A stretch of DNA of 29,944 nt. It comes from a virus. A program made the position numbers and the translations under genes. Location: positions 1-29,944 of the IMG/VR virus record IMGVR_UViG_3300032313_000985. One strand, written 5' to 3'. Below are positions 3,856 to 29,594 of this stretch, piece after piece; position 1 is the first letter of the stretch, and each line of letters begins with the position of its first letter. The notes beneath the pieces were generated by a model that saw only the letters and a program-made list of their open reading frames with translations, was not told the DNA's origin and ran no database searches.

Positions 3856-5047
3856 GATCGTACCAATCGCACATGTTGACAGTAGAGATTATTACTGTAA
3901 TGTAAAATTTCAATCTATGAAAATAGATCTTGAAAAAAGAAATACTTACAATTGCGATGTGGCACAACCTCGGCCGATTGATCTAGCTTGGTTGGAAAAT
4001 AATCCAGGACAATTATTTAATAATTCAATTTCAGTTGCTGAACGCAGCATGATGCTCGATAATCAGCGAAATTCAAGCTGTGAATTTAATTGTTTTCGTG
4101 CCGAGGATATGGGATCAATTAGCGCAAGAATTATTAGAGAAGGATATATCAAATCCCATACACAAACAGTAACACAACCCACCATACTAGACCTTACTGT
4201 TGGCTCGGATTGTATTTTAACCTGTACATATTGTACCAAGGAATTTAGTTCTGCATGGAGAAACGATATACAAAAAAATGGATCCTACATATTAGAAGAT
4301 GACAGCAACAGATACCAATTGAATATTAAAGATAAATTAATTGGTACGTTGTCACAAAATCAGAAGGCAAATTTGCAATCATACAATTTACTCATTAAAG
4401 AAATTGAAACAATTGCTTCGAATCTAGATGTTGTTTATATATCCGGTGGTGAACCGCTATTGTACAACAATATCAACGAGATACTGGAAAAAATTAACAA
4501 TGTACCCAATGTGTTTATGTTTACCGGACTGGGCGTTAATATAAAAAGATTTGAAAAAATGCTAAACACATTAAAGAACTTTTCAAACATTACTTTATAT
4601 CTAAGTTGCGAAAATATTGGAAACTATTTGGAGTTTAATCGCTACGGAATCAATTCTGCAGAGTATCAAAAAAAGCTAGATCTAATTAAAGATAGTGGAA
4701 TTAAATTTATATTTCATTCGGTATTGAGCAATTTAAGTGTGATTGGATTTTATGATTTTTTACAACAGTATAGAGATCATGTACAAGGTCATGATTTTGT
4801 GTACACTCCTGATTTCATGGCAGTGTGTGTACTGGATAATACAAGCAAAAATAAAATAAGAGACCAGTTTCAAAATGATTCGTTGCCATGGAAAAAGCAA
4901 TTGTTACAAAATTTGGAAGCAGAACCAACACCAAAGCAAATCAATAATCTTGCGTCGTTTGTCAAAGAATTTACAAAAAGAAGAAATATTAATTTAGTTG
5001 ACATTTATCCCAAACACTTCACTGATTGGTTAGATAATGTGGTATAA
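3821..5047 (+). CDS. Radical SAM enzyme with N-terminal Cys region
   Basis: A 408-residue protein. The radical SAM [4Fe-4S] motif is C131-x3-C135-x2-C138 in GSDCILTCTYCTK, followed by a glycine-rich SAM-binding YISGGEPL. Before it lies a cysteine-containing region (Cys26, Cys45, Cys87, Cys91, then ERAED-like CFRAEDMGSIS) that matches the N-terminal half of 'twitch' radical SAM proteins common in phages. The reaction and substrate are unknown; peptide or sugar modification are options. The ATG at 3821 lies inside the upstream gene and has no good ribosome site, but the N-terminal residues belong to the family pattern, so a much later start is unlikely. It sits between uvsX and uvsY and overlaps uvsY by 11 bases. 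Confidence 0.78.
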   Translation: MTKTKKLITKNKIVPIAHVDSRDYYCNVKFQSMKIDLEKRNTYNCDVAQPRPIDLAWLENNPGQLFNNSISVAERSMMLDNQRNSSCEFNCFRAEDMGSISARIIREGYIKSHTQTVTQPTILDLTVGSDCILTCTYCTKEFSSAWRNDIQKNGSYILEDDSNRYQLNIKDKLIGTLSQNQKANLQSYNLLIKEIETIASNLDVVYISGGEPLLYNNINEILEKINNVPNVFMFTGLGVNIKRFEKMLNTLKNFSNITLYLSCENIGNYLEFNRYGINSAEYQKKLDLIKDSGIKFIFHSVLSNLSVIGFYDFLQQYRDHVQGHDFVYTPDFMAVCVLDNTSKNKIRDQFQNDSLPWKKQLLQNLEAEPTPKQINNLASFVKEFTKRRNINLVDIYPKHFTDWLDNVV

Positions 5048-5743: not shown

Positions 5744-6491
5744 AAATGCTGATGTAAGCTTTCAACATACACAATTTATTCGAGATCTACTATATCAATA
5801 CGATAGTTTTTTAGATAGTCTTGAAGTTGTTGCTGACTTTGGTTGCGGCGAAGGACTAGATTTAGAATGGTGGGCTACACTGGAGACCAGAGACGATCCT
5901 CCTGAACCAAGAAATTACTTATGTTATGCAGTTGATCGTAACGTAAAACAAATTAGAAAAGAGATAACAAATCTACCAAACGTTCTTGCAATTGAAGCAG
6001 ATTTAGAAGATGCTGATAGATTTATTTCTAGACAAATTGATTTAGTTTGGTGTCACGATGTTTTTCAATACATAACCGACCCTGTACACACACTGCGTCG
6101 TTGGAATGAAATGATGAGTATAAATGGAATGTTAGTAATGTCCATTCCCCAATCAACACATTACGAACACAATAGATTAAACAATAATAGCTATAACGGC
6201 TGGTACTTCAATCATAATGTTGTAAACTTAATGTACATGTTAGGCGTAAACGGATTTGATTGCCGTGATGCGTATTTTTACAAAGATGTAAACGACATGT
6301 GGTTACATGTTGCTGTGTACAAAAGCGATGTTGCACCAATGGATCCGCAATCTACCACATGGCATGATCTTGTTGATGCCAACTTAGTGAATGAAAGCGT
6401 TAAAAACTGTATTGAACGATATGGTTATGTGCGACAAGAAGAAATACTTACAACCTGGTTAGATAAAGATTACTATAGAATTAAAGAATGA
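5730..6491 (+). CDS. Class I SAM-dependent methyltransferase
   Basis: A 253-residue protein with the Rossmann-type SAM site: motif I VVADFGCGEGLDLEWW (about 34-49), an acidic residue at the end of strand 2 (YAVDRN), and motif IV-like DLVWCHDVFQYITDP followed by a post-motif strand GMLVMSIPQ. These are methyltransferase 11/25-type signs. The target is unknown; a small molecule or sugar is as likely as a protein. A GAGG ribosome site lies 10 bases before the ATG. It overlaps the next gene, a nucleotidyltransferase-cupin fusion, by 4 bases, which favours a job in sugar metabolism over DNA modification. Confidence 0.75.
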   Translation: MALFKNADVSFQHTQFIRDLLYQYDSFLDSLEVVADFGCGEGLDLEWWATLETRDDPPEPRNYLCYAVDRNVKQIRKEITNLPNVLAIEADLEDADRFISRQIDLVWCHDVFQYITDPVHTLRRWNEMMSINGMLVMSIPQSTHYEHNRLNNNSYNGWYFNHNVVNLMYMLGVNGFDCRDAYFYKDVNDMWLHVAVYKSDVAPMDPQSTTWHDLVDANLVNESVKNCIERYGYVRQEEILTTWLDKDYYRIKE

Positions 6492-7273
6492 AAATAGTTC
6501 TTGTAACTGGCGGATTTGATCCCTTGCATAGCGGACACATTGCCTACTTGAAAGAAGCCAAAACACTAGGGGACATGCTGATTGTTGGCTTAAACAGTGA
6601 TGAATGGCTTGAACGTAAAAAAGGTCGAGCATTTATGCCGTGGAACGAAAGATTATGTGTAGTTAATAATCTTGCAATGGTTGACGAAGTCTACACATTT
6701 GACGACGAAGACGGTTCTGCTATGCATTTTATTCAACAAGCAAGAGCACATTATCCAGAAGCAATATTAATTTTTGCCAACGGTGGCGATCGAACAGCCA
6801 ACAATATTCCCGAAATGCAATTCGTCGACAGCAATCTTGAGTTTGCATTTGGAGTAGGTGGGTCAAATAAAAAAAATAGCAGCAGCAATATATTAAAGCA
6901 GTGGACTGCCACCGAAGTGCAACGGTCTTGGGGAAGTTATACAGTGTTGAACGAAATACCTGGGGCAAAAGTTAAAACACTGACAGTCATGCCCGGACAA
7001 ACTCTAAGTATGCAAAGACATCAATATCGTAGCGAATATTGGATGGTGACTGATGGCACTTGTATGATCAATATGGCGCTTCCGGGCGATTTGAATAACC
7101 CGCCAAAAATTTTAAGAAAATATGATGAATGGCGGGTACCACAAAATACCTGGCATCAACTAACTAATCCGTTTACACGACCTTGTACAATTGTTGAAAT
7201 TCAATACGGCGAACAGTGTGTTGAGAACGATATTGAGCGATTAGATTCCGGCGGTCAAGCAGCGCAAATATAG
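6488..7273 (+). CDS. Fusion: cytidylyltransferase-like domain plus mannose-6-phosphate isomerase-type cupin
   Basis: A 261-residue two-domain protein. Residues 1 to about 137 form a nucleotidyltransferase of the HxGH class: GGFDPLHSGH at 8-17, VGLNSDEWLERKKGRAFM, GGDRT near 100, and NSSSNIL as the C-terminal Ser/Thr motif. This fits HldE-C or TagD-like enzymes that join NMP to a sugar or polyol phosphate. Residues about 140-261 form a type II phosphomannose isomerase cupin: RSWGSYTVL, then MQRHQYRSEYWMV and NTWHQLTNP as metal ligands. Such a protein could isomerise and activate the same sugar phosphate. The two modules also occur as separate genes at 28844 and 29175. It ends the plus-strand recombination block. 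Confidence 0.8.
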   Translation: MKIVLVTGGFDPLHSGHIAYLKEAKTLGDMLIVGLNSDEWLERKKGRAFMPWNERLCVVNNLAMVDEVYTFDDEDGSAMHFIQQARAHYPEAILIFANGGDRTANNIPEMQFVDSNLEFAFGVGGSNKKNSSSNILKQWTATEVQRSWGSYTVLNEIPGAKVKTLTVMPGQTLSMQRHQYRSEYWMVTDGTCMINMALPGDLNNPPKILRKYDEWRVPQNTWHQLTNPFTRPCTIVEIQYGEQCVENDIERLDSGGQAAQI

Positions 7274-9666: not shown

Positions 9667-10126
9667 TGTAGCTAAAGGCAAAGATAGCTATGATGCCACC
9701 TTCGATAATTCGTTGGTGGCATTTTTCAATAAAAATATCACTCCCTATGCCACTGAAGTAGGTGGTCCGGCGTTTGATTTGATTCCTATTGAAAAACAAA
9801 AAGACATCATGGTCAATGTTGCTCGTATGCATGCCGAGCAAGAATACAATCGTATAATGGATGTGGTAAAGGTATTACAGAAACAAGCGGAAGATATAAA
9901 GCGCAGATTGTATATTACAGATGCAGTACATGCAGCAGAATATCAATTTCAAATCTATCATGGCCAATGCTATTGGTTATGCTACGATCATCATATTCAA
10001 CGCACAAGGCTTTGCCATCAAGGTCCCGATGAGTGGACTACTGGGGCGCCTGAGAAATACGAATATATTTGTAAAGTTAAATGGTTAGGTGATTATACGT
10101 GGACTGAAGTTACCACACAAAGTTAG
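9647..10126 (+). CDS. DUF2452 family protein
   Basis: A 159-residue protein that fits the DUF2452 pattern known from T4-like phages and some bacteria: an early NVAKGKDSYDA, then PYATEVGGPAFDLIPIEKQKD, a helical centre, and a C-terminal part with YQFQIYHGQCYWLC and GPDEWT. The function of the family is unknown to me. It ends in TAG, which matters for reading the amber codon at 12208. Its last 17 bases overlap the end of the convergent dehydratase gene, and no terminator separates the two. Confidence 0.7.
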   Translation: MTKKKSNVAKGKDSYDATFDNSLVAFFNKNITPYATEVGGPAFDLIPIEKQKDIMVNVARMHAEQEYNRIMDVVKVLQKQAEDIKRRLYITDAVHAAEYQFQIYHGQCYWLCYDHHIQRTRLCHQGPDEWTTGAPEKYEYICKVKWLGDYTWTEVTTQS

Positions 10127-11048
10127 CTCTGTACCAATTGACAATTCTTGCAAGTTCTTCGTCAAAGTCAGCAACTGGTGCCCAACCAAGAGCTCTTAAC
10201 TTGCTATCATCGATTGCATATCTAACATCCTGTCCTGGACGTACTAGATCAGTAACATGGTCTTGGTAGTCTGTAATACCAAATTGATAGAATATTTTCT
10301 GTACTACGTTTAGATTACTGTCTTCGTAATTGCCTGAGATATTGTAAATATTATTTTGAACACCGGACTTGATAACAGTCAATACTGCTTCGGCAGTATC
10401 GCTAATGTGCAACCAAGTACGTCTTGGTGTTCCTTTATCGTGCAAATCAACTTGACGTCCCAGTTCCATGTACTTGACAGTCTTGGGAATAAGTTTCTCT
10501 ACATATTGTCCAATGCCGTAGTTGTTGGTGGGACGTAAAATAATATAAGGAATATTAAATGTTCTAGCAAAGGCCAGTACCAGCATATCTGCGGCTGCTT
10601 TTGTTGCAGAATACGGATTACTTGGCTTTAAAAGGTCTGTTTCTACATGAAAACCTGTTTCAATATCGCCATATACTTCGTCGGTACTAAAATGTATTAG
10701 TGTAGGCATTTTAAAACGACTCTTTTGTTGAATAAGAGTTAACAAATGATGCACACCATTAACATTGCTACGCAAGAACACATCTGAACTCATGATACTG
10801 TTATCTACATGAGTTTCGGCAGCACAGTTGATGATATAGTCGCAATCCACTAAACGTTCAAGATCATTAATATCGCTATTAATGTATTTGAATTTTGGAT
10901 TCTTTTGTAGTTGTGGTAGGAACTGAACGTTACTGGCATAGGTTTGTTTGTCTACTCCAATAACATAATAATCTTCGTCGAGCATGCGTGTAGCAACACG
11001 ATAGCCAATCAAACCTAAACAGCCTGTTACATAAACAATCTTTTTCAT
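10110..11048 (-). CDS. NAD-dependent nucleotide-sugar 4,6-dehydratase/epimerase (RmlB-like)
   Basis: A 312-residue extended SDR. The NAD loop is GCLGLIG (9-15). The dehydratase-type active site STDEVYG (121-127) carries the Asp-Glu pair used to remove water between C5 and C6, and the catalytic pair is Tyr146-x3-Lys150 in YSATK. This is the RmlB (dTDP-glucose) or RfbG (CDP-glucose) type that makes 4-keto-6-deoxy sugars, and the sequence does not decide the nucleotide. In this operon it would supply the substrate of the RfbH-like enzyme at 18143. It is the last gene of the minus operon and overlaps the previous one by 4 bases. A second, different member lies at 22157. Confidence 0.85.
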   Translation of the reverse strand: MKKIVYVTGCLGLIGYRVATRMLDEDYYVIGVDKQTYASNVQFLPQLQKNPKFKYINSDINDLERLVDCDYIINCAAETHVDNSIMSSDVFLRSNVNGVHHLLTLIQQKSRFKMPTLIHFSTDEVYGDIETGFHVETDLLKPSNPYSATKAAADMLVLAFARTFNIPYIILRPTNNYGIGQYVEKLIPKTVKYMELGRQVDLHDKGTPRRTWLHISDTAEAVLTVIKSGVQNNIYNISGNYEDSNLNVVQKIFYQFGITDYQDHVTDLVRPGQDVRYAIDDSKLRALGWAPVADFDEELARIVNWYRANFVW

Positions 11049-11797
11049 ATTTTTCCTAGAACAGCCAATACTTGTAAATCATAATCTACTGCAGTATCAA
11101 CTAATTGAACGTCGTGTCTATTTAGTAGTGCTACTAAAGATGATTTACGAAAGAAGTTAATATGTTCACCTATTACTATATCACGTGCAGGCGGCTTGCG
11201 ATAAGCAGGTACTTCAATATATAGATAACTGTTAGCAAGAGCTTTAAGATTGTCTATTAGTTGATTTATATCTGCTACATGTTCGAGTACTTGGCAATTC
11301 ATAACAAGATCAAATTTTTGTTTTTGTGCAGGATCATATTTTTTAATACCGGGCAACGTATCCGCTCCGCTAACATCATACACATATCTATCTGCACCGT
11401 CAAACATTGCTGGAATATACTTTCCGTCATCGCCGCCGTAGTCTATAATAGATTTGACGTTGGTAACATGCTGACTAATTAATCTATCAATAAATTCTTT
11501 ACGTTTCTTAATATGCAACTCTGAGTACACAACTGCTTGATAGTTTGGTTCGCACTCTATTCTCATTTGATTATACTGTTGATCTCTATACCCTGCATAT
11601 AAACGAGCAAGTTCTTCATCAGTAAATCTCGTGTCACTAAAATAGTAATTGCAATGATTACATTGTATTAATAAATTACTAAGATTTGATTCAGGTTTAA
11701 CACCGCTAGTGCGCCATACAACAAACTGCGACATATACGCAGGTATACTGGTTTGATCTACCGAATTGCAACAGGGGCAAGAAACAATTTTATGCAT
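11045..11797 (-). CDS. Methyltransferase with N-terminal zinc-ribbon-like Cys pairs
   Basis: A 250-residue protein. The N-terminus has two Cys clusters, CPCC at 7-10 and CNHC about 40 residues later, spaced as in a zinc ribbon. The SAM fold follows, with motif I IDYGGDDGKYIP near 124-135 and a later VMNCQVLEHVADINQLIDNL as motif IV. The same build is seen in sugar C-methyltransferases and in the larger protein at 23900, but the C-terminal half of the classic C-methyltransferase is absent. Likely a sugar methyltransferase. The ATG overlaps the stop of the upstream SDR (TAATG). Confidence 0.75.
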   Translation of the reverse strand: MHKIVSCPCCNSVDQTSIPAYMSQFVVWRTSGVKPESNLSNLLIQCNHCNYYFSDTRFTDEELARLYAGYRDQQYNQMRIECEPNYQAVVYSELHIKKRKEFIDRLISQHVTNVKSIIDYGGDDGKYIPAMFDGADRYVYDVSGADTLPGIKKYDPAQKQKFDLVMNCQVLEHVADINQLIDNLKALANSYLYIEVPAYRKPPARDIVIGEHINFFRKSSLVALLNRHDVQLVDTAVDYDLQVLAVLGKI

Positions 11798-12540
11798 TAT
11801 TGAGGAAATACTCCGCAGTCAACATTAATGTTCTGTCCGGTTATGGCTGTAGTGTTAACTAGCATCATGCAGGCATCAGCTACTTCTTTTCCAGTTGGCA
11901 ATCTGTGTAGTGCTGTTTGTTCTCGTGCAAACTTTTGCATCCATTCAACAGGATTATCTCCTCCTGGTGCATGTTGGCTTTCTAGTGCAGTCATCAATCC
12001 AGGAGTAGGAATAAGCACAGGGCATACACCATTGACACGTATACCACTGGGTCCAAACTCTTTTGCCAGTGACTGCGTCATACCATTCATACCAAATTTG
12101 GTTGCTACATAAGCAGAGTTATTACTGCTGCCACGTTTACCAGCAATGCTACTGATATTAATAATACTACCACCGGACTTCATGGCACTGTATGCAGCCT
12201 TACAGCCCTAGAATGCACCTTTAAGATTAGTAGAGATAATATCGTCTAGGAATTCTTCGTCAATTTGATCTATAGGACGCCATTCTGAATAACCTGCATT
12301 GTTAATATATACATCTACTCGACCTGTGCGTAGTAATGCATGATTGACCAACATTGCATGATCTTCAGCTTTGCGAACATCCATTGGAACATGTGTTACA
12401 TTAACAAGATTTTGTTCCATACCAGAACGTGATCCTACAAATACATCGTAATTGGCTGAAGCAAAACGTTGTGTAATGTCCCACCCAATGCCTCTGTTAC
12501 CGCCAGTGATAATAACTGTGCGTCTTATATTGTCTGACAT
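11797..12540 (-). pseudogene. Short-chain dehydrogenase/reductase broken by one in-frame amber codon
   Basis: One continuous frame of 248 codons encodes a complete SDR apart from a TAG at 12210-12208 (codon 111). Upstream lie TGGNRGIG (NAD(P) loop) and NNAGY. Downstream, after the stop, lie the catalytic Ser (NISSIAGKRG) and YVATK, and a normal end (ITGQNINVDCGVFPQ). The residues around the stop read NLKGAF-stop-GCKAAYSA, where SDRs often have Trp, so a TGG to TAG change (plus-strand C to T at 12209) explains it. The truncated N-terminal part lacks the active site. An ATG at 12183 could start the second piece but has no ribosome site. TAG is used as a normal stop elsewhere in the window, so recoding is unlikely. 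A sequencing error, a true mutation or host suppression remain. Confidence 0.85.
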
Positions 12541-13310
12541 GCAAATCCTCCATCAACTGTTACTTCTGTGCCAGTCACAAATTGGCTTGCATCTGATGCC
12601 AGATAGATAACGGCACCAACAAGTTCTTCTGGTTCGCCAAATCGACGCATTGGCGTATGTCCTAGTATTGCTGCTTCACGTTCTGCAGTAATAAAGTTTT
12701 TACGATTCCATTTTGTAGGAAAGAATCCTGGTCGTATAGCATTAACACGTACTCCTTGTGTTCCCCATTCTCTTGCTAAGTTCTTGGTCAAGTTTACAAC
12801 ACCTGCTTTGGCCACACTGTAAGTAAATGCTTTACTTAAAGGAGGATCTGCACTAGCTGAGCTAACGTTAATAATACTTCCGCTGCCACGTTCTAACATG
12901 TGTTTGCCAAATACTTGACAGCCAAACACGGTGCCTTTGAGTTGCGAGTTCATAATGTTATCCCACTCCTGTTCTGTTATCTCAAGGAATGGCGTAGAAC
13001 CGTTAATACCAGCACCGTTAATTAGTACATCGCAACCGCCAAATCTATGAATGACAGAAGTTAATACAGATTCATGTGATTGTTTGATGCCAACATCTAT
13101 TGCAAGCGAAAGAGTATTGGTGTAACCAAGCCTGTTTATTGTGGTCTCAACTGCTTGTGATTTTTCTAAACGCAGATCGCAAATAGTAACAGATGAGGCA
13201 CCTGCTTGTGCAAGTCCGCGAGCCATTGCGCCACATAAGTGTCCGCCTGCTCCGGTAATTACTACATTCTTTTTAGATAAATCAAATAATTGGTTAATAT
13301 ATTGGGACAT
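12525..13310 (-). CDS. Short-chain dehydrogenase/reductase
   Basis: A 261-residue classical SDR. The cofactor loop reads TGAGGHLCG (19-27), slightly unlike the usual TGxxxGIG. NGAG is at about 98-101, the catalytic Ser near 150, and Tyr164-x3-Lys168 in YSVAK. The C-terminal VTGTEVTVDGGF is typical. It would reduce a keto sugar or alcohol with NAD(P)H. In the operon it may reduce the keto group left after the ThDP enzyme acts. It overlaps the broken SDR by 16 bases and the upstream epimerase by 17 bases, and is distinct in sequence from the broken SDR. Confidence 0.85.
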   Translation of the reverse strand: MSQYINQLFDLSKKNVVITGAGGHLCGAMARGLAQAGASSVTICDLRLEKSQAVETTINRLGYTNTLSLAIDVGIKQSHESVLTSVIHRFGGCDVLINGAGINGSTPFLEITEQEWDNIMNSQLKGTVFGCQVFGKHMLERGSGSIINVSSASADPPLSKAFTYSVAKAGVVNLTKNLAREWGTQGVRVNAIRPGFFPTKWNRKNFITAEREAAILGHTPMRRFGEPEELVGAVIYLASDASQFVTGTEVTVDGGFACQTI

Positions 13311-14100
13311 GATAAGTTGATAGTGAAAGATCTAATCCTTGTAATTGTACAGGTAATTCAGCAAGTTTACGACCGCTGCCGGTATAGTTATTGCCACCTG
13401 CGGATTCAACTACATAGTGTGGACTTAAATCGTTTAATGTACAAAATTTTTCAATTACTTCGCTAATTTTGTATTTGGTTAAGTATACTGCATTGACGTC
13501 TTTGTGTACAGGATCGTTATTGACATAATAATCAACCACAGCGCAAAGATCTTTGATACCAAAGTAATCAAAATATCTATCCATGGTAATTGCCAATGGA
13601 GTATTTCCCCCTAACAAAAAACGTGGAAATATTCTTGTTGTTATTTCACCAATGCCAAAACAATTAAAAATTCTTATGGTATAGAAATTTGGGGTACGTA
13701 CACAAATTCTACTTTTCATATTTTGCCCAAAGTCATAACTGTCTGTGGGCATTACTGTAAAAATATCTTCTTCGGGTGCTTCTAACAAATCTCTAGTACG
13801 ATCCAGCTCTGCACCTGAACTTAAATTAATAAACTTTCCAAACAATTCTGAATTGTTATAGAAGTTCATGAATAAACCTAAATTATTTCGGGTATCAGCA
13901 AGTAGATTGTTATTGCCCATAGTAGTAGCAGCATTAACCACAATATCAAATTTCTCATTCTCTAACCACTTTCTGACTTTTACAGGATCTAATAGATCAA
14001 TTGTTTGCCTTGTTACCGGAACAACAATGTGATTGTGTTTAAAATATGCGGCAAGGCTTGATCCTACAAATCCTTTTGCACCTAATACAGCAATTTTCAT
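13294..14100 (-). CDS. NAD-dependent epimerase/dehydratase-like protein with altered active site
   Basis: A 268-residue extended SDR. The nucleotide loop is GAKGFVG (7-13) and NAATT is the usual NAA step. At the catalytic site, the expected Tyr-x3-Lys reads Tyr122-Asp-Phe-Gly-Gln126, so Lys appears replaced by Gln; Lys129 lies three residues later. The IRIFNCFGIGE stretch after it is normal for the family. The protein may therefore be a reductase or epimerase with changed chemistry, or have lost activity. It sits between an FkbM methyltransferase and an SDR, with a 2-base gap upstream, so it is co-expressed. Substrate unknown, presumably an NDP-sugar. Confidence 0.78.
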   Translation of the reverse strand: MKIAVLGAKGFVGSSLAAYFKHNHIVVPVTRQTIDLLDPVKVRKWLENEKFDIVVNAATTMGNNNLLADTRNNLGLFMNFYNNSELFGKFINLSSGAELDRTRDLLEAPEEDIFTVMPTDSYDFGQNMKSRICVRTPNFYTIRIFNCFGIGEITTRIFPRFLLGGNTPLAITMDRYFDYFGIKDLCAVVDYYVNNDPVHKDVNAVYLTKYKISEVIEKFCTLNDLSPHYVVESAGGNNYTGSGRKLAELPVQLQGLDLSLSTYHVPIY

Positions 14101-14101
14101 A

Positions 14102-15184
14102 TCAATTGGGGATAGCGTAGATTACAGACTCGAAACTGTTGTAGTCATGTTGACGAATGTAGAACTTGTAGTTTTCGCAAACGGAATTTAATAACAAAGG
14201 CAAGTCCCATAAGTCACCAGGCTTGTGATATCCTGCCATAACAAGTACTGGACGCTCACGTCGAATAGTTTGTTCTGCACCACGAATAGCATCGGCTTCG
14301 CAACCTTCAATGTCAAGCTTGATAAAGTCTATGTGACGTTTGGGAAATAGTTCATCAATTGCACCAGCAGCAATATGTATATCACCTTGTTTGACTACAG
14401 CACTGCTTGTACCTACATCGCTAGCAAAGGTTAATATTTTATAAGTGTCTGCTAACGCTAACGGATAACATATAGCATTACCGCCAACATTGTGTGTTAG
14501 TCTACTAAAGTTTTTAGGGTCTGGTTCAAACAAGAACGCTGTTTCTATAGGAGTTGCGTTAATAGCATCTTGATATGTGTCACCGGTATATGCACCACCG
14601 TCTATTAAGGTAATTGCCTGTCCTTTAAATTTAGTTAATAATAACTTGTTAAAGTAATGCGGCTCTTTGCTTTTATAATCTGCTTGTTCATTGGCTAGTC
14701 CAACACGGAACAATAGCGCATTCAATAAACATGAACGACTTTCTTCATCTTCAACTAAATTATACACATTTTGAATTTCCGGCAGATGATCGGTAATATA
14801 ATTCAATGGTGTTAACCAATACCGCCAGCCTAGTTGATCTTTAAATTGTGCATACAATTCCCATGGCATGAACACTTTGCTAAAACCATGTTCCTGTGCT
14901 TCGGCAAGCATCTTAGTATAAGGTACATTGTGACTAAACACACCCATTGCCAGTTGTACATTTTCCCAGGTAACATCCTTCCAGCTTACTATAGGAAGAT
15001 CAAGTAAAGTTTTTTCCTTGGGATCTGATACAACAAATCCGTACACTTGAAATCCTTCGCCGATTAATACTTTGGCAATACTACGTGCAAATCCACCTGC
15101 TCCAAAAATCCAGACTGGCTTTCCATGATCTAATGTTTCAAAATGCCCATACGAAACAGTTTTACTAAACTTGTTAAAATCCAT
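14102..15184 (-). CDS. FkbM-family methyltransferase with N-terminal Rossmann-like domain
   Basis: A 360-residue protein with two parts. Residues about 20-110 contain WIFGAGGFARSIAKVL and a following acidic turn, a dinucleotide-binding-like fold similar to the N-terminal domain of PglD-type proteins. The C-terminal half is FkbM: IDGGAYTGDTYQDAI as SAM motif I, FEPDPKNF, and DFIKLDIEGCEADAIRGAE. FkbM enzymes O-methylate sugars and other small molecules. The ATG overlaps the stop of the ThDP gene upstream (TAATG). Its place in the operon suggests O-methylation of the sugar made there. Confidence 0.83.
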   Translation of the reverse strand: MDFNKFSKTVSYGHFETLDHGKPVWIFGAGGFARSIAKVLIGEGFQVYGFVVSDPKEKTLLDLPIVSWKDVTWENVQLAMGVFSHNVPYTKMLAEAQEHGFSKVFMPWELYAQFKDQLGWRYWLTPLNYITDHLPEIQNVYNLVEDEESRSCLLNALLFRVGLANEQADYKSKEPHYFNKLLLTKFKGQAITLIDGGAYTGDTYQDAINATPIETAFLFEPDPKNFSRLTHNVGGNAICYPLALADTYKILTFASDVGTSSAVVKQGDIHIAAGAIDELFPKRHIDFIKLDIEGCEADAIRGAEQTIRRERPVLVMAGYHKPGDLWDLPLLLNSVCENYKFYIRQHDYNSFESVIYAIPN

Positions 15185-17031
15185 TATTCATCCTTGATTA
15201 TGTTCTGTTCCATTTCTGCGTCTGGCAGGAATGGACTCATATATTCTAAACTTGGTGCTAGCATTGATCCATCTTCAAGTTTACGTGCTGCAAGTTTTGG
15301 TGCAAACAGTTGATCCGGGTCAACTACAACTTCTATTATAGCAGGTTCGTTGTTCTTTAACAACATTTGGACCATATCACTATTCCATGCATCCATGGTA
15401 TCAACACGATGACTCATAATGCCAAGTGCAACGCCGAGTGCAACAAAGTCTGGTAATGTTACCCCATCTTTGGGATTGGTTCCGAACACATTGTCGCTAA
15501 AGTATGCTTGTTGTGTTTGTTTGATTGAATGATATCCGTTGTTGTTAACAATAATGATCTTGATAGGTAATCGGTAACCCACTACAGTTTGTAGTTCTTG
15601 CAAGTTCATCATTATACTGCCGTCGCCGGCAATACAATATACCTTGTTGCCACCTACAGCAACACTGGCACCGATTGCAGCAGGTAAGTCGTAGCCCATG
15701 CTTGCATTACCTGAGTTACTGTAAAATCTTTGTCCTGCTTTGAGTTTACCAGCTTGTCCACTTATAACACTGGCACTACCATTGCCACTTACAACTATGT
15801 CTGTGTTATCTAGTTTGTCAAAGAAATCTTTAAAGAACAAATAAGGATTTACAGAATCTATTTTGTGTTCGTATGTTGGTAATACTGGATCATACTTGGC
15901 AACACGTTCTCTGCACCAATTCAAGTATTCTGTATGTGTTTCGGGTCTTACATATACTGTAGTTTGTTCCAAAAACTCTGCGATAAAATTGTTTAGATTG
16001 CAGTGTACTTTAAGATCAATATTGAGTGTGGGCTTGTCTAATTCAGCACGATCAATATCAACCATGACTTTGTACGCATTTTTGGCAAAGTTTTTATAGT
16101 TATAACTAATCATTCTAATGTTTAGTCTGCTGCCAAGTATTAATACAAAGTCTGCATTTTGTACAGCGAAGTTACCAGCACGGTCACCAACCATGCCCGG
16201 ATGTCCGCAGTATTGTGGATGATCATTAGTTAACACATCGTATGCATTGAAACTGCTAACAACCGGTATTCCTAGTCTTTCGACTAACTCCAAGAATTCA
16301 TCGTGCATACCTGATAAACGCACACCAGTACCAGCATATATTACTGGTCTTTTGGCTTGGTACAAACGATCAATAATTGCAGGAATATTTCGCTCGTACT
16401 GATCAACACCCAATGTGTGTAATTCAAGTCTTGTGTTTTTGGTTACTGCAGGATCTAGTGCTAATGTAGTTAAGTTTTTGTCCCAGCCTGTTAATGAATC
16501 AGGATCAATTTGTGTGCTTTGTATATCAACTGGAATATCCACCCATACAGGACCAGGTCTACCGTGTGTGGCAAGGAATATGGCCTTGTCCATGACTTCT
16601 TTGATCAGTTTGGGATCATGGAGAGTTACTGCATACTTGACAACAGGTTTGGCCATGCTAACAATGTCTACTTCTTGATCACCAAGTTGTCGCATTGGTA
16701 ATTCATAGTTACGTAAGTATGTTTCATTCTTGACTTGTCCACTGACTACAAGCATACCGCAACTGTCAACGTAAGCACCAAACACACCATTAAGTGCATT
16801 AATACCACCAGGTCCTGTTGTTACATTAAGAACACACAGTTGATTGTTGATACGATAGTAACTTTCCGCAGCAATGGCAGCCGCTTGTTCATGATGAAAG
16901 CATACTGGTGTTAGATCTTTGTGACGTCCAAATGCATCATTGAGATGCATTGCACCTCCGCCGGTTACAAGAAATACATGTCTTGCACCAGCCGCAGCGC
17001 AGCGTTCAGCTACATAGTCGGCTAATCTCAT
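15184..17031 (-). CDS. Thiamine diphosphate-dependent enzyme of the acetolactate synthase family
   Basis: A 615-residue protein with the three-domain build of acetohydroxyacid synthase-like enzymes. The catalytic Glu of the Pyr domain is Glu48 in HHEQAAAIAAE; the middle domain holds AGTGVRLSG; the PP domain has GDGS at about 469 with NNN about 28 residues on, the Mg-ThDP motif. Family members decarboxylate pyruvate or another 2-keto acid and add the two-carbon unit to an acceptor. Given the RfbH-like enzyme three genes upstream, the closest known role is YerE, which acetylates a CDP-3,6-dideoxy-4-keto-hexose in yersiniose synthesis. Host acetolactate or sulfoacetaldehyde chemistry cannot be ruled out. 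It overlaps the NeuB-like gene by 4 bases. Confidence 0.82.
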   Translation of the reverse strand: MRLADYVAERCAAAGARHVFLVTGGGAMHLNDAFGRHKDLTPVCFHHEQAAAIAAESYYRINNQLCVLNVTTGPGGINALNGVFGAYVDSCGMLVVSGQVKNETYLRNYELPMRQLGDQEVDIVSMAKPVVKYAVTLHDPKLIKEVMDKAIFLATHGRPGPVWVDIPVDIQSTQIDPDSLTGWDKNLTTLALDPAVTKNTRLELHTLGVDQYERNIPAIIDRLYQAKRPVIYAGTGVRLSGMHDEFLELVERLGIPVVSSFNAYDVLTNDHPQYCGHPGMVGDRAGNFAVQNADFVLILGSRLNIRMISYNYKNFAKNAYKVMVDIDRAELDKPTLNIDLKVHCNLNNFIAEFLEQTTVYVRPETHTEYLNWCRERVAKYDPVLPTYEHKIDSVNPYLFFKDFFDKLDNTDIVVSGNGSASVISGQAGKLKAGQRFYSNSGNASMGYDLPAAIGASVAVGGNKVYCIAGDGSIMMNLQELQTVVGYRLPIKIIIVNNNGYHSIKQTQQAYFSDNVFGTNPKDGVTLPDFVALGVALGIMSHRVDTMDAWNSDMVQMLLKNNEPAIIEVVVDPDQLFAPKLAARKLEDGSMLAPSLEYMSPFLPDAEMEQNIIKDE

Positions 17032-18134
17032 AGTCCTCTGTTTTTAATTAGATTTTTGAGTGAAGTGTTTGTTGCGTATGGACCATCAATGTGATCAATA
17101 GTTAACGGTTCGTTGGCTTTAATTTCTTGTGTTAAACTTTCGCCATTCATAATTTCGCGGCAGCTCAGCTGACCTTTGCGTAATGGAATAGCTAGGTAAA
17201 AGTCTTTTTCGAAACTGTCTTTGTGTATTTTGTATCCTGGTGCTAGATCACGACGTGCATAAGCACCACGTACCAGCTGATCAAGATATTCTGTTTCTTT
17301 GCGACTAATAACACGACGACTAGTACTACGTCCTCCGCACATTTCAATTGCTTTGTGATATGCTTTGAACCATGTGTCGCATTGTTCTGGCAATGAGCAA
17401 TAGCTACTAACAGGCACATTGTTATAGTCAATGTCTACATGTCTTTCCCAGGTACGTGCGCCTTTGGCATAACTCATCAGCATACTGAAACTCCAATCGT
17501 GGTATTCATGTGTGCTTAGGCCAATCACGTTATCTGGGTAACGATTGCGTAAGTAATCAATTTGATCCAGTTCTAGTTCGTTGTCCTCGCTGGGATATAA
17601 ACTAACACAATGATTGATTGCTAACGGAATATCACGCTTGGCAAAGTAAGTGACAATATCATCCAAGTCTTTTTCACTAGCACCACCTGAGCTAATAATA
17701 GTAGGACGACGTGTGCTGGCAATTTTACTAATCAATGGCCAATCGTTAACATCGCTAGATGCAATCTTGATAATAGGCATATCAAATTCAATACACAAGT
17801 CCACTGATTTTTCATCAAACGGTGTGCTCATAGGAATACAACTCATGTCACGAATCTTATTGACCATGACAGCAAAATCATCTCTGCTTAGTTTAGTTTG
17901 CTCGGTTTTCTTGATGTAACGATTGTCTTGATCACCTTTAAACTCGGGATGAATAAACTCATCTACATCTCTAAACTGTAGTTTAATTGCAGCTTTGACA
18001 TTATTAATGCGAGCAATGCTTCCGTGTTCGTAGATTAGTTTTAATCCACGCTCCAAGCTGCCCCAATGATTGTTTGCAATTTCTAATACAAAAAGATTTT
18101 CAAAAATCTCATTACCTTTTTTACGATATGACAT
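17028..18134 (-). CDS. NeuB-like sugar synthase with C-terminal SAF domain
   Basis: A 368-residue protein with the NeuB order of motifs: EIANNHWGS (about 18-26), STPFDEKS (103-110), KIASSD (123-128), HCVSLYPS (175-182), GLSTHEYHD (205-213) and ERHVDID (230-236). A SAF (antifreeze-like) domain spans about 290-350. NeuB enzymes condense PEP with an N-acetyl sugar to make sialic, legionaminic or pseudaminic acid. Several residues differ from the sialic acid enzymes (for example SSGGAS in place of STGMAT), so the acceptor may be new. AAGGAAAAGT before the ATG is a good ribosome site. No partner CMP-sugar synthetase is seen in the window. Confidence 0.84.
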   Translation of the reverse strand: MSYRKKGNEIFENLFVLEIANNHWGSLERGLKLIYEHGSIARINNVKAAIKLQFRDVDEFIHPEFKGDQDNRYIKKTEQTKLSRDDFAVMVNKIRDMSCIPMSTPFDEKSVDLCIEFDMPIIKIASSDVNDWPLISKIASTRRPTIISSGGASEKDLDDIVTYFAKRDIPLAINHCVSLYPSEDNELELDQIDYLRNRYPDNVIGLSTHEYHDWSFSMLMSYAKGARTWERHVDIDYNNVPVSSYCSLPEQCDTWFKAYHKAIEMCGGRSTSRRVISRKETEYLDQLVRGAYARRDLAPGYKIHKDSFEKDFYLAIPLRKGQLSCREIMNGESLTQEIKANEPLTIDHIDGPYATNTSLKNLIKNRGL

Positions 18135-18142
18135 ACTTTTCC

Positions 18143-19462
18143 TTAAATGAATAAACTCATAAAGCCATCAACTTTTTCGCCAATGTAAGCGATTTGTTCT
18201 GGCGTAATTACTGGACTGGTGCCATGAAAATATGTATGTGTCATGGCGTGTGTTGCATTTGGATAACTATCACGGGCCTCTTTTGGATCCATGAGATGAC
18301 TGTATGCTGGCTGTAACATAATATTGCCAGCAAAGTAAGGACGAGTCTGAATCAGATTTTCTTCCAAATAGTCTACAATGTCTGCACGAGTAAATGGTGC
18401 GTCTTTGCGTATTGTTAATGGAAAAGCAAACCACGATGGGTCAGAATTCGCCTGTGCTCTGGGTAAGTGAAAGTATTCTTCATACTTTTCATATATGGTA
18501 AACAACAAGTTGTAGTTTCGTTTACGTAATGCATGAATCTCATCCAACTTTTTAAGTTGTTGCATGCCCATGGCACATTGTAGTTCAATTGGTTTCAAAT
18601 TATAACCAATCTCATCATACACATACTTGTGATCAAATATTTCACCTGGTAGCTCTGGAATCCATTCTTGGAATCGTTTGCCGCATGTTCCGCACTTTAG
18701 TTTGTTGGCGTCTGGCCCTACACAATAACAACCACGACCCCATTCACGGAAGCTGCGTAGTATAACATCTTGGGTGGCATCGTCGGTGGCAACAAAACCG
18801 CCTTCGCCCATGGTCATATGATGTGCAGGATAGAAACTGCATGAAGCCATTAATCCAAAACTGCCTAAGGGCTTACCATTATATGTACTGCCTAATGCAT
18901 CACAACAATCTTCTAATAGTATTAGCTTGTACTTCTCAACCAATGCCATTACTTGATCCATGTTAGGCGGATTGCCTAGTACGTGTGCAAAAGTAATAAC
19001 TCGAATATCTGGATTGTCTTCCAGTACACGTTCACATTGAGCTACATCTAGGTTGAGTGTATCTAGTTCAATGTCTACAAATACAGGAGTGAATCCAACT
19101 TGCAGTGTGGGATTGAGCGTAGTGGGAAAGCCTGCAATAGGCATCAATACCTTGGTATCTTTTGGCAAGTTATAACCACGCTTACTGGTAAGTGCAGTCA
19201 TCATTAACAAGTTACTACTGCTACCTGAGTTGGTAACAATACCTCGAGTCTTGCCAAACTGTTTAGGGAATTCACGCTCGAATCGCAAGCCTTCGTCGCC
19301 CATTGCAAGCCAACCTTTGAGTAAACTTTCTACTCCGGCTATGTATTCTTCTGATCCGTAGTAGGCACCTGCATAGTTTACAAAGTCTCGGCCCGCAGTC
19401 CAAGTTCGATTGGCCTGCTTTTCTTCTATGTGTTTTTTAACGAGTTCTAGGATTTCTTTCAT
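18143..19462 (-). CDS. rfbH: RfbH/DdhC-like 3-dehydratase (PLP and iron-sulfur, E1 type)
   Basis: A 439-residue DegT/DnrJ/EryC1/StrS-fold protein. The usual PLP lysine is replaced by His: SFYPAHHMTMGEGG, with His214 at the Lys site, the hallmark of CDP-4-keto-6-deoxy-glucose 3-dehydratase (E1). Four cysteines for a [2Fe-2S] cluster follow as Cys245-x-Cys247-x9-Cys257-x2-Cys260, ending GKRF as in E1; the middle spacing is longer than I recall for RfbH. The enzyme removes the C3 hydroxyl on the way to 3,6-dideoxyhexoses. Its flavin/iron-sulfur reductase partner (RfbI/DdhD) is not in the window. It overlaps the GT34-like gene by 4 bases and is second in the minus operon. Confidence 0.88.
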   Translation of the reverse strand: MKEILELVKKHIEEKQANRTWTAGRDFVNYAGAYYGSEEYIAGVESLLKGWLAMGDEGLRFEREFPKQFGKTRGIVTNSGSSSNLLMMTALTSKRGYNLPKDTKVLMPIAGFPTTLNPTLQVGFTPVFVDIELDTLNLDVAQCERVLEDNPDIRVITFAHVLGNPPNMDQVMALVEKYKLILLEDCCDALGSTYNGKPLGSFGLMASCSFYPAHHMTMGEGGFVATDDATQDVILRSFREWGRGCYCVGPDANKLKCGTCGKRFQEWIPELPGEIFDHKYVYDEIGYNLKPIELQCAMGMQQLKKLDEIHALRKRNYNLLFTIYEKYEEYFHLPRAQANSDPSWFAFPLTIRKDAPFTRADIVDYLEENLIQTRPYFAGNIMLQPAYSHLMDPKEARDSYPNATHAMTHTYFHGTSPVITPEQIAYIGEKVDGFMSLFI

Positions 19463-20115
19463 TTGATCACTTGAGTTAACATTTGTTGAGCTAGTGGAAT
19501 ACGTCTATCGTTTTTAATACCTGGCCACTGGATTAAGAAATCTCCAGGTTGCCATTGTCCGTCGTTACCAAAAATATCTCGTTTGTATATGTGTGGAATA
19601 CTGCCCGGATATTGATCGTAATCGTATGCATTGATCAAACGTTGTGGAACAATGCGTAATTTGTCGCCTAGTTTTTCGATATGATCAATCATGCACTGTT
19701 GATCATTCCAAGCATGTTTCATATCATACTGGTCTTGAAATGTATCTAACAACTTTAACCATGCAATACACTCTGGGGTATTTCGAGCAAGGTAGCTGTC
19801 GTTGTTGATATTAAAACAGTCAGTGGCAATAATAAAATGACTATTGTCATCTACAATATCTTCCAATCGAATATCAAAATTGGTAATCATGGTATCGCAG
19901 CCAACTGCATGAACCCAATCGTAACCGGATTCTAGTAATTCTACAACCTTACGAGTCCTGGCCCAGCTAATATCGCCCAATGTTGTAAATCCATCAGTTA
20001 CAGTGTATGCACTGTATCCATGACGTTCGGCATAAAGCTTTTTATTTTGATCCCAGGTAATGTTAGCAAGTGGTTGATAAGCCTCGTTGTAGGCTGTAAC
20101 TAGAGCAAATTTCAA
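19459..20115 (-). CDS. GT34-like glycosyltransferase (GMA12/MNN10 type)
   Basis: A 218-residue protein with the GT34 pattern: ALVTAYNEAY at the N-terminus, GYDWVHAVGCDTMITN (about 64-79) at the metal-binding DxD-like site, NDQQCMIDHI further on and GDFLIQWPG near 192-200. GT34 members transfer hexoses with retention. It is first in the minus operon. The start is a TTG, with AAGGA 6 bases before it; the promoter -10 box lies 24 bases upstream. No membrane segment is seen. It probably adds the operon's sugar, or a neighbouring one, to a glycan. Confidence 0.8.
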   Translation of the reverse strand: MKFALVTAYNEAYQPLANITWDQNKKLYAERHGYSAYTVTDGFTTLGDISWARTRKVVELLESGYDWVHAVGCDTMITNFDIRLEDIVDDNSHFIIATDCFNINNDSYLARNTPECIAWLKLLDTFQDQYDMKHAWNDQQCMIDHIEKLGDKLRIVPQRLINAYDYDQYPGSIPHIYKRDIFGNDGQWQPGDFLIQWPGIKNDRRIPLAQQMLTQVIK

Positions 20116-21047: not shown

Positions 21048-21923
21048 ATGAGTAATTCTTCTTTAGAAATAACAACCATGATTGGTTGTCCTTTAATGTG
21101 TACATACTGTCCACAAGATAGCCTACGTGATGCGTATGGCGATGATGTCAAATACATGAGTCTAGATGACTTTAAAACAGCGATTGACAAAGTGCCAACT
21201 ACGGTACGTCTAGATTTTAGTGGACAAGCAGAGCCCTGGGTTAATACTGCTTGTACAGACATGGTTCAGTATGCATTGGAAAAAGGATTTCGTTTAGCAA
21301 TCTTTACAACACTGTACGACTGGGACGAAGACACTGTACATCGTATGGGAGAATTGCTACTAAAATATGCCAAACAAATTGAAATTTTCAAAGTTCATTT
21401 TCCCGACGAAGCCGGAAACATGCGTGGATGGCGTCCCAGTCCCGAATGGGAATATGCTTACATAGGCATGCGAACTATTGTACAATCAGTTGGCATACAC
21501 TACGAAGCAATGACCATGAGTGATGGAGGTATACATCCGGCTATACGTCATTTGCCGGGTGCTGGAGTCAGTCATGGGTGGTCTATAGCGGCGCATGATC
21601 GTGCAGGCACTTTGGATGTTGCACAAGTAAAAGATCAGCCGATCAAATTTGCTCCCAAGCACGAACAACCAGTCAGATGCGGAAAGACACCTTATTACGA
21701 TCAGGGTGTGTTGCTGCCTAATGGAGAAGTGTTGTTGTGTTGTATGGACTACGACAAAAAACATGTTATGGGCAATTTACTTGAGCATGATTATGCTGCA
21801 CTCGCAACTAATCCGGCAATGACCAAACTGCAAGAACTCAATTCATTACCGGTATGGACTGCAGAATCACTTTGCAAATCTTGTACCGATGCAGTCCCTG
21901 ATCGCAGATACCTTAATGCTTGA
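21048..21923 (+). CDS. Radical SAM enzyme with SPASM-type C-terminus
   Basis: A 291-residue protein. The radical SAM motif is Cys14-x3-Cys18-x2-Cys21 near the N-terminus (TMIGCPLMCTYC), with a SAM-binding LDFSGQAEPW. The C-terminal part has RCGKTPYY, then LLPNGEVLLCCMDY and LCKSCTDA, the Cys pattern of a SPASM domain that holds extra iron-sulfur clusters. Family members modify peptides, sugars or proteins; the target is not known here. It follows the GT17 gene by 3 bases. Its stop codon overlaps the -35 box of the next promoter. Confidence 0.85.
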   Translation: MSNSSLEITTMIGCPLMCTYCPQDSLRDAYGDDVKYMSLDDFKTAIDKVPTTVRLDFSGQAEPWVNTACTDMVQYALEKGFRLAIFTTLYDWDEDTVHRMGELLLKYAKQIEIFKVHFPDEAGNMRGWRPSPEWEYAYIGMRTIVQSVGIHYEAMTMSDGGIHPAIRHLPGAGVSHGWSIAAHDRAGTLDVAQVKDQPIKFAPKHEQPVRCGKTPYYDQGVLLPNGEVLLCCMDYDKKHVMGNLLEHDYAALATNPAMTKLQELNSLPVWTAESLCKSCTDAVPDRRYLNA

Positions 21924-27370: not shown

Positions 27371-28116
27371 TATACAAACATTCAGGAACATTTGGGGATT
27401 TAATTTACAGTTTGTCTGTGGTTAAAAAAATGGGCGGCGGTACTTTGGCTGTTGCATTGGGTAATATTGAGCAGTGTGTTGCTGAATATGGTTATAGACC
27501 AGACGAAGTAGATCCCATGCACAAAGGCAGATTCCGCAATGCCGACCTTGATCTTATCAGACCTTTATTGACCAGACAAAGTTATATAGATCAAGCTACA
27601 GTGTGGACTGGCGATCAAGACGTTGACCTAGATCGTTTTCGTGGAGTATTATTTCGCGGCTTCGAAGGCAACTATGTTGAAGCTTATCATAGAACATTCA
27701 ATTTGCCATTTACGTCTGATGTCTACAACGAAACATGGTTGGAAGCAGATCCAGTATCAGTGGCCGGTATAGTGATTAATCGTACATTTAGATATCGTTG
27801 CCCCAATGGTACAGGTACTTGGCAAAATCTATTAGAGCAAGCCAATATCACACAGAACGGCGTATTTGTTGGTACTCAAGAAGAACATGAAGATTTTGAA
27901 AAGAGCACTGGTTTTCGTGTAAACTATTACGCTGTACGAGATTTTAAAGAACTTGCTGATGTTGTTGCTGGCGCAGATTTGTTTATGGGCAATCAAAGTG
28001 CTGCTTACAGTATAGCAATGGGACTTGGTAAAAGTTCTGTGTTGGAAACAATTAAAATTAAACCTTTGGCAAATAATGAATGTTATTTTCCAAGAGATAA
28101 CTGTCAATATTTCTAA
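27367..28116 (+). CDS. GT-B-like glycosyltransferase, GT9-related
   Basis: A 249-residue protein. The opening KHSGTFGDLIYSLSVVKKMGG resembles the GT9 start. The end DLFMGNQSAAYSIAMGLGKS resembles the donor-site DSGPxHxAxALG with the acidic residue changed. A short form of this kind is common next to GT9 genes in phage clusters, in my recollection. It may be a second, diverged transferase or a partner of the gene before it. It overlaps that gene by 4 bases and is followed at once by the heptose kinase (TAATG). Confidence 0.65.
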   Translation: MIYKHSGTFGDLIYSLSVVKKMGGGTLAVALGNIEQCVAEYGYRPDEVDPMHKGRFRNADLDLIRPLLTRQSYIDQATVWTGDQDVDLDRFRGVLFRGFEGNYVEAYHRTFNLPFTSDVYNETWLEADPVSVAGIVINRTFRYRCPNGTGTWQNLLEQANITQNGVFVGTQEEHEDFEKSTGFRVNYYAVRDFKELADVVAGADLFMGNQSAAYSIAMGLGKSSVLETIKIKPLANNECYFPRDNCQYF

Positions 28117-28847
28117 TGAAAATTTTATTAGTAGGCGATAACGGAATAGATCAATACCAATTTGGGACTGTGACAAGAATCAGTCCTGAAGCGCCTGTGC
28201 CTATTCTAAATTATACACACACTGTAATTAAACCAGGTATGGCTGCCAATGTACAAAACAATTTAGAAAAGCTGGGTTGTGAAGTTGACTTCGTACACGG
28301 TATCAAAACTTGTATCAAGACTCGTGTGATTGATAGTAAAACTGGTCAACATCTAGTAAGGATAGATCAAGACATACCTAGTCGTGCCGTAAAAATTGAC
28401 TATAGAGACATAGACAAGTATAATGCTATTATCGTCAGCGATTACAACAAAGGAAGTGTAGAATATGAAACCGTTGAAAATTTGCGTAAGAATTACACAG
28501 GTCCTATTTTCGTTGACACTAAAAAAACAGATCTTGCAAGATTTGAAGGTTGCTATGTTAAGATTAATGCGCTTGAAAGCGCCGCGGCTAAAACAGTTCC
28601 CACGGAACTTATTGTTACCCTCGGTAGAGATGGTGTAAAGTACAAGGATCACAAGTTTTCTACTCCACAAGTAGAGGCGTTTGATGTATGCGGGGCAGGT
28701 GACACTTTCTTATCTGCTCTCGCATACAACTACGTTTTATCAGAAGATATATTGTCTGCAATTAAATTTGCAACACGAGCAGCCAGTGTAACCATTCAAC
28801 ACATTGGTGTTTACAGTCCAACATTGGAAGAAATAGAACAAGTATGA
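28116..28847 (+). CDS. hldE: D-glycero-beta-D-manno-heptose-7-phosphate kinase (HldE N-terminal half)
   Basis: A 243-residue PfkB-family kinase. The N-terminal GDNGIDQYQFGTVTRISPEA matches the opening of the HldE/RfaE kinase domain. KPGMAANVQNNL follows, and DVCGAGDTFLSAL near the C-terminus carries the GAGD motif with the catalytic Asp at about 196. It phosphorylates heptose 7-phosphate at C1. It is shorter than the kinase half of bacterial HldE (about 318), so some loops are trimmed. It is a stand-alone half; the adenylyltransferase half is two genes downstream. The stop overlaps the next ATG (ATGA). Confidence 0.88.
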   Translation: MKILLVGDNGIDQYQFGTVTRISPEAPVPILNYTHTVIKPGMAANVQNNLEKLGCEVDFVHGIKTCIKTRVIDSKTGQHLVRIDQDIPSRAVKIDYRDIDKYNAIIVSDYNKGSVEYETVENLRKNYTGPIFVDTKKTDLARFEGCYVKINALESAAAKTVPTELIVTLGRDGVKYKDHKFSTPQVEAFDVCGAGDTFLSALAYNYVLSEDILSAIKFATRAASVTIQHIGVYSPTLEEIEQV

Positions 28848-29212
28848 CAAGATTAACAGGTTATGTAGAAAAAGGTTGGGGATCAGAAATGATCTGGGCA
28901 ACCAATGACAAGTACTGTGGCAAGATGATGAACTTTAAAGAGAATGCACGGTTCAGTATGCATTTTCATCGTGAGAAGGATGAATCGTGGTATGTACTAA
29001 GTGGAACATTTGAAGTGGAATGGATCGATACTGCTGATGCGTCCAGACACACCAAAACTCTAGTACCGGGAGATACTTGGCATAATCCTCCCTTGTTACC
29101 ACACAGAATAACTTGCATCAACGCCGGAACAGTAATAGAAGTTTCAACCGCAGATTCAGTAGAGGACAATTATCGTGTACAGCCCGGGGATAGCCAGAAG
29201 AGTAATAGTTAA
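28844..29212 (+). CDS. Cupin protein, mannose-6-phosphate isomerase-like
   Basis: A 122-residue single-domain cupin. Residues GWGSEMIWA and KENARFSMHFHREKDESWYVLSG carry His-x-His...Glu metal ligands, and PPLLPHRI the last His. It is of the type found at the C-terminus of bifunctional mannose-6-phosphate isomerase/GDP-mannose pyrophosphorylases and is used alone as a sugar-phosphate isomerase or epimerase. It lies between the two HldE halves and overlaps the second one by 38 bases. It is a probable relative of the cupin half of the fusion at 6488. Confidence 0.83.
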   Translation: MTRLTGYVEKGWGSEMIWATNDKYCGKMMNFKENARFSMHFHREKDESWYVLSGTFEVEWIDTADASRHTKTLVPGDTWHNPPLLPHRITCINAGTVIEVSTADSVEDNYRVQPGDSQKSNS

Positions 29213-29594
29213 CGGTACATTTGATATCCTGCATCGTGGGCATATCGAAATGCTCAACTTTGCTCGAAGTCAAGGAACCTATTTGTTAGTAGCTATAGAT
29301 AGTGATAAACAGGTACGAGAATTAAAAGGGGCGAGTCGTCCTATTAATGATCAAGAAGATCGAAAGTTCATGCTTGACAATTTACAATGTGTTGATGCTG
29401 TTTGGATTTTTGATACACAAGAGGAACTGGAACATATTTGTAAAATATACAAGCCGCATCTGATGGTAAAAGGTGGAGATTATAATGGCAAAAAGATCAC
29501 AGGCAGTCAATATTGCGATGAAATTAAATTTTATAATTTAGTACCCGACTATTCAACGAGTAAAATAATTGAAGATATTAATAACAGGAAGTAG
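29175..29594 (+). CDS. hldE: D-glycero-beta-D-manno-heptose-1-phosphate adenylyltransferase (HldE C-terminal half)
   Basis: A 139-residue nucleotidyltransferase. VIVNGTFDILHRGHIEML contains HxGH at 20-23; ELKGASRPINDQEDR, VKGGDYNG and GSQ follow, and STSKIIEDI is the terminal Ser/Thr motif, all in the order of HldE-C. It makes ADP-heptose from heptose 1-phosphate and ATP. The start is a GTG at 29175, within the cupin gene, and the ribosome site is weak. Its TAG stop shows again that TAG is a working stop in this genome. Confidence 0.88.
   Translation: MYSPGIARRVIVNGTFDILHRGHIEMLNFARSQGTYLLVAIDSDKQVRELKGASRPINDQEDRKFMLDNLQCVDAVWIFDTQEELEHICKIYKPHLMVKGGDYNGKKITGSQYCDEIKFYNLVPDYSTSKIIEDINNRK

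Follow-up and report, generated by a model that had tools for sequence, protein, structure and literature searches.

The window analysed here, a viral fragment of 29,944 bases and not a whole genome, carries an operon in which a NeuB-like gene lies between the genes for an E1-type dehydrase and a YerE-like ThDP enzyme. We consider it quite likely that PEP and an aldehyde are joined by the NeuB-like enzyme into a keto-acid donor; the ThDP enzyme would decarboxylate this donor and graft what remains of it onto a 3,6-dideoxy-4-keto sugar at C4. It further appears fairly likely that a large 'sialic acid synthase' clade, found in jumbo phages and at least nine bacterial phyla, acts as a keto-acid donor module for ThDP-dependent sugar branching and is evolutionarily interchangeable with 4-hydroxy-2-oxovalerate and HpcH/HpaI aldolases; since the donor-makers interchange in evolution, the one adjoining a carboligase would predict the grafted chain. 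What is new is that a NeuB-fold synthase is proposed to act in a branching pathway of the YerE type. Enzymes of each kind were already known, and no published NeuB/ThDP or aldolase/ThDP link in this pathway was found in the literature searched.

The viral operon and its enzymes

The operon occupies the minus strand from 20115 to 10110, with the genes in the following order.

19459..20115, minus strand: glycosyltransferase, GT34-like, the operon's first gene (Pfam Glyco_transf_34, E 7e-13)
18143..19462, minus strand: E1/RfbH-type NDP-4-keto-6-deoxyglucose 3-dehydrase (NF011936, 441 bits, cut-off 423; Yersinia E1, 3bcx, E 2e-101)
17028..18134, minus strand: NeuB-like, putatively PEP-dependent synthase with SAF domain, 368 aa (Pfam NeuB, E 3e-36); putative maker of a 2-keto-3-deoxy-4-hydroxy acid
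15184..17031, minus strand: YerE-like ThDP carboligase with three TPP domains (JanthE, 8rph, 366 bits; 5ahk, 214 bits); putative consumer of the keto acid
14102..15184, minus strand: FkbM-family methyltransferase (TIGR01444, 64 bits) with a NeuD-like N-terminal part (TIGR03570, weak)
13294..14100, minus strand: NAD-dependent epimerase/reductase, RmlD-like (Pfam Epimerase, E 2e-10), conserved next to the cassette
12525..13310, minus strand: short-chain dehydrogenase, mannonate/gluconate dehydrogenase-like (PRK08277, 240 bits)
11797..12540, minus strand: second short-chain dehydrogenase, with an in-frame TAG at 12207-12209
11045..11797, minus strand: SAM methyltransferase (Pfam Methyltransf_23)
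10110..11048, minus strand: RmlB-like NDP-glucose 4,6-dehydratase (TIGR01181, 298 bits, below the cut-off of 365), found in most viral loci

The first-pass annotation had read a NeuB/SAF gene with the motifs SSGGAS and GLSTHEYHD between E1-like and ThDP genes, and this arrangement is confirmed by the open reading frame, the profile and structure matches and an AlphaFold2 model. Seven other viral contigs carry the gene at 73-98% identity, so it is no chance reading frame. The 4-base coupling claimed for it exists on the ThDP side, where the two genes overlap at 17028-17031, but E1 and the NeuB-like gene are separated by 8 bases (18135-18142) and thus lie close without overlapping. The nearest relatives of the window's UvsX protein come from jumbo phages, among them Agrobacterium phage Atu_ph07 (68%).

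The RmlB-like dehydratase is the likely source of the 4-keto-6-deoxy sugar and stands in place of RfbF and RfbG, which are absent among the window's identified genes, while the RmlD-like protein is a candidate reductase for the branch ketone or the sugar. Neither a ferredoxin-type reductase partner of E1 nor an AroB-like or HAD gene, and hence no obvious source of the acceptor aldehyde, was seen in the window. At the in-frame TAG in the second short-chain dehydrogenase the near relatives L002 and L005 have tryptophan, and the codon reflects either a broken gene or a sequence error. Elsewhere in the window, the genes at 6488-7273, 28116-28847 and 29175-29594, which encode a cytidylyltransferase-cupin fusion and, separately, a PfkB kinase and a nucleotidyltransferase, resemble a heptose-activation set, and two radical SAM/SPASM-type proteins (3821-5047 and 21048-21923) are encoded amid glycan genes.

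The two structures listed above are the best PDB matches of the ThDP protein, and 5ahk is presumably PpYerE. In alignment A5 the catalytic Glu48, the G469-D470-G471 stretch and N497 are invariant, and the family predicts a C4-branching carboligase acting on an NDP-keto sugar. JanthE, the higher-scoring match, is itself a YerE-like enzyme (PMC12188165). A YerE-like system is expected to have a linked E1 dehydrase that makes the 3,6-dideoxy-4-keto acceptor, and such a gene is present at 18143-19462. Its product passes the RfbH equivalog cut-off and carries a histidine in FYPAHHMTMGEGG (the FYPAHH site, located by motif) that would replace the PLP lysine of aminotransferases; cysteines 245, 247, 257 and 260 form a putative iron-sulfur set.

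A NeuB fold with altered acceptor residues

Among solved structures the NeuB-like protein matches best 3g8r (E 1e-57, 36% identity), a C. violaceum structural-genomics protein named 'spore coat polysaccharide biosynthesis protein E', which shares the STHE motif and to which its entry assigns no function. The AlphaFold2 model (mean pLDDT 90.6) aligns with 3g8r over almost the full length (Z 37.6) and with N. meningitidis NeuB, C-terminal SAF domain included (Z 31), and scores Z 22-23 against DAHP/KDO8P synthases. The TIM barrel, the SAF fold and the PEP and metal residues are shared with the NeuB/PseI/LegI enzymes (1xuu, 8h2c), yet the NeuB and PseI equivalog models of NCBIfam give the protein only 104.6 and 110.9 bits against cut-offs of 399.65 and 340.25, whereas the best scores of ten canonical paralogs range from 244 to 511 bits. 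A tree built from 60 proteins separates the window type, a cupin-fused type and 3g8r from all canonical proteins by a branch with an SH-aLRT support of 100; 3g8r, the nearest solved structure, therefore belongs with the window-type clade and not with canonical NeuB/PseI. PHROGs holds no family for the protein and known phage records contain only distant NeuB genes; phage-specific novelty was nevertheless rejected, as bacterial relatives of 60-79% identity are common.

We aligned 160 relatives and 14 canonical sequences to N. meningitidis NeuB, taking the division of its residues into PEP/metal and acceptor roles, including those of Asp247 and Arg314, to be as generally understood for that enzyme. 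The PEP/metal residues Lys53, Thr110, Lys129, Ser132, Ser154, Ser213, His215 and His236 are invariant in all 160 relatives, and Glu25, Gln55 and Tyr186 essentially so. Conversely, Asp247 (14/14 canonical rows) and the SAF-domain Arg314 (13/14) are absent from all 160 relatives, the window-type rows having V/I/L/P and I/V/W/F in the respective columns. The family has invariant residues of its own (Arg55, His62, Tyr73, Trp132, Arg167 and Glu210), and the conserved basic Arg55, Arg72 and Lys75/76 would suit a phosphorylated acceptor. With the PEP/metal residues kept, the acceptor residues replaced and a confident model matching 3g8r and NeuB, we take it as very probable that the protein is a functional synthase that uses PEP but an acceptor other than the canonical one, its PEP-dependent reaction being assumed from the fold. 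The first-pass annotation had suggested a novel acceptor made by the operon. The loss of acceptor residues beside an intact PEP/metal site argues for an acceptor unlike that of known nonulosonate synthases, but nothing points to the operon's deoxy sugar in this role.

Gene linkage and interchangeable partners

To place the gene in its wider context, we collected 80 viral and 80 bacterial loci with NeuB-like genes, of which 52 viral and 44 bacterial loci had full flanks (at least 6 kb on both sides); as control we used the surroundings of canonical NeuB paralogs in the same genomes (15 regions, one of them only 5.8 kb). The relatives come from phages and from bacteria of at least nine phyla. 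In 92 of the 96 full-flank loci (50/52 viral and 42/44 bacterial, so that two of each lack it) the NeuB-like gene has a YerE-like ThDP gene nearby, compared to 0/15 control regions; the Fisher p of about 1e-12 overstates independence because the loci share ancestry. E1 occurs in 29/52 viral and 36/44 bacterial full-flank loci and in no control region. RfbF (glucose-1-phosphate cytidylyltransferase) and RfbG (CDP-glucose 4,6-dehydratase) each occur in about 47 of the 80 bacterial loci, identifying these as CDP-3,6-dideoxy-sugar clusters. By homology search, a CMP-sugar synthetase is found in 0/80 bacterial and 2/80 viral loci as against 6/15 canonical regions; the 29.9 kb of the window likewise hold no homolog, as the first-pass annotation had noted. 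Within one class, represented by 369 genomes, seven have the ThDP type and six the NeuB-like gene, and the four genomes with both always carry them on one contig within about 2 kb (p 7e-7, ignoring shared descent). The co-occurrence of NeuB, ThDP and E1 genes raised by the first-pass annotation is hence widespread in viral and bacterial loci, and the opposite picture, of a NeuB-like protein standing alone in related phages and grouping with ordinary synthases, is contradicted by the viral linkage and the separate clade. Cupin-fused NeuB-like proteins of about 500 aa with the cupin at the C-terminus (L056, L058, L059, L062, L065, L081 and others) also mostly adjoin a ThDP gene.

The search was also run from the ThDP side, with a ThDP profile over 369, 318 and 326 genomes of three groups, from which 33 loci were kept after exclusion of two contig-end matches and of the three centre genomes, which had been picked for having a NeuB-like gene. 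Nine of these loci carry a NeuB-like gene (four of them cupin-fused), eleven an HpcH/HpaI aldolase and three a 4-hydroxy-2-oxovalerate aldolase with an acetylating acetaldehyde dehydrogenase; none carries two of these donor-makers and ten carry none, five of the ten also lacking E1, RfbF and RfbG and the other five having dideoxy-sugar genes. The 4-hydroxy-2-oxovalerate aldolase reaches 386 bits with TIGR03217 (cut-off 286), and the aldolase/dehydrogenase pair scores above the curated cut-offs where tested. In the ThDP tree, HpaI and NeuB-like partners interchange at least three times, with loci L244 (HpaI) and L250 (NeuB-like) as sisters at 99, and the pyruvate-type branch stands apart. We had expected a NeuB-like gene in JanthE clusters, but this was rejected: all six members of the JanthE-type branch, some from clusters found separately, carry the DmpG/DmpF pair instead. 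The eight clusters with PpYerE orthologs, of the pyruvate-using YerE type, read RfbF-RfbG-E1-ThDP and none contains a NeuB-like gene.

Several further arrangements were observed. Locus L030 has NeuB-like and HpaI-like genes together. In L258 (4689-7566), which lacks E1, RfbF and RfbG, a PseI-like NeuB gene from the canonical side directly follows the ThDP gene, which may be a similar pairing that arose independently. An AroB-like 'sugar phosphate phospholyase (cyclizing)' (TIGR04425) adjoins NeuB-like or HpaI-like genes, mostly with ThDP, in L024, L127, L244, L250, L254, L263, L264, L267, L269-L271, L273 and others; its product may have a part in forming either the aldehyde or the keto acid.

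Proposed pathway and alternative readings

The three kinds of partner belong to different families, each of which makes, or comes from a family making, a 2-keto acid that carries a C4 hydroxyl, and the simplest reading is therefore that they supply the ThDP donor, with the caveat that the HpcH/HpaI and HMGL-like families include non-aldolases. From families, fold, residues and partner swaps we infer the following chemistry, the aldehyde and the final sugar included. The RmlB-like enzyme would convert NDP-glucose to NDP-4-keto-6-deoxyglucose, from which E1, judging by its family, would remove the 3-hydroxyl. The fold and residues of the NeuB-like enzyme suggest that it condenses PEP with R-CHO, where R is left unspecified, to R-CHOH-CH2-CO-COOH and phosphate, the product being a 2-keto-3-deoxy-4-hydroxy acid. 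The ThDP enzyme would then release CO2 and move R-CHOH-CH2-CO- to C4 of the sugar, as its family and the partner swaps suggest, so that two of the three PEP carbons would end up in the branch and the carboxyl would leave as CO2. Finally, the dehydrogenases would reduce the product and the glycosyltransferase would transfer it.

This scheme has precedents in known systems. In the yersiniose A pathway (CDP-4-keto-3,6-dideoxyglucose and pyruvate; PpYerE, 5ahk), E1 is likewise combined with a YerE-like ThDP enzyme that adds a decarboxylated keto acid to C4, but the PpYerE-type clusters lack a NeuB-like gene, whereas the window encodes a putative dedicated donor-maker and its dehydratase is RmlB-like. 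While YerE uses pyruvate, ErwE and MMAR_2332, the ThDP enzymes of the longer-branched erwiniose and caryophyllose, prefer 4-hydroxy-2-oxo acids as donors (PMC12247030); that paper does not name the source of the keto acid. The side chain of caryophyllose is 1,3,4,5-tetrahydroxyhexyl, deoxy at C2' (PMC5706390), which would be the mark expected of a 2-keto-3-deoxy donor but is not proof that its producers use a NeuB-like enzyme; a literature search for the gene lists of the erwiniose and caryophyllose clusters gave none.

Alternative roles for the NeuB-like protein fit parts of these data. An ordinary or slightly diverged nonulosonate synthase, providing a sialic, pseudaminic, legionaminic or Kdn-type acid for the same polysaccharide independently of ThDP, would have the NeuB fold and the intact PEP/metal site, but we regard this as very unlikely and rejected it on the equivalog scores, the separate clade with its support of 100, the absence of Asp247 and Arg314 from every relative and the near-absence of CMP-sugar synthetases from the neighbourhood; such a role also sits poorly with the swaps of the gene for unrelated aldolases. 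The order of events implied by the first-pass annotation, in which the substrate of the NeuB-like enzyme is an aldehyde that stems from the operon's own deoxy sugar after the E1 or the ThDP step and receives the pyruvyl unit directly, is very unlikely. It would agree with the shared operon and the lost acceptor residues, but a free aldehyde is lacking in NDP sugars, the ketols formed by YerE-type enzymes bear tertiary alcohols, and the DmpG/DmpF pair found as a replacement turns pyruvate and acetaldehyde into a known small keto acid, for which no sugar is needed. An end product joining PEP carbons with a deoxy sugar, as that annotation envisaged, is probably correct, though more plausibly reached by the reverse order, with the NeuB-like product as ThDP donor.

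It is also unlikely that the NeuB-like product is a precursor for another step, for example an AroB-like cyclase leading to a carbocycle or a dideoxy heptulosonate, and that the ThDP gene merely shares the locus. In 28 viral and 11 bacterial loci, and in several loci from the ThDP search, TIGR04425 genes do adjoin NeuB-like or HpaI-like genes, but an AroB-like gene is missing from the window and from the majority of loci, in contrast to the nearly universal ThDP gene.

A supply of keto-acid donor by the NeuB-like enzyme bears on related systems as well. The hydroxy keto acids required by ErwE and other YerE-like enzymes are unusual, and the pattern of co-occurrence and replacement proposes a concrete source for them. 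Many database entries labelled 'N-acetylneuraminate synthase' or 'sialic acid synthase' are probably misnamed and would instead have a keto-acid-donor function. The linked genes would offer donor/acceptor pairs for tertiary-alcohol biocatalysis, and phages would carry substantial portions of the pathways to branched higher-carbon sugars.
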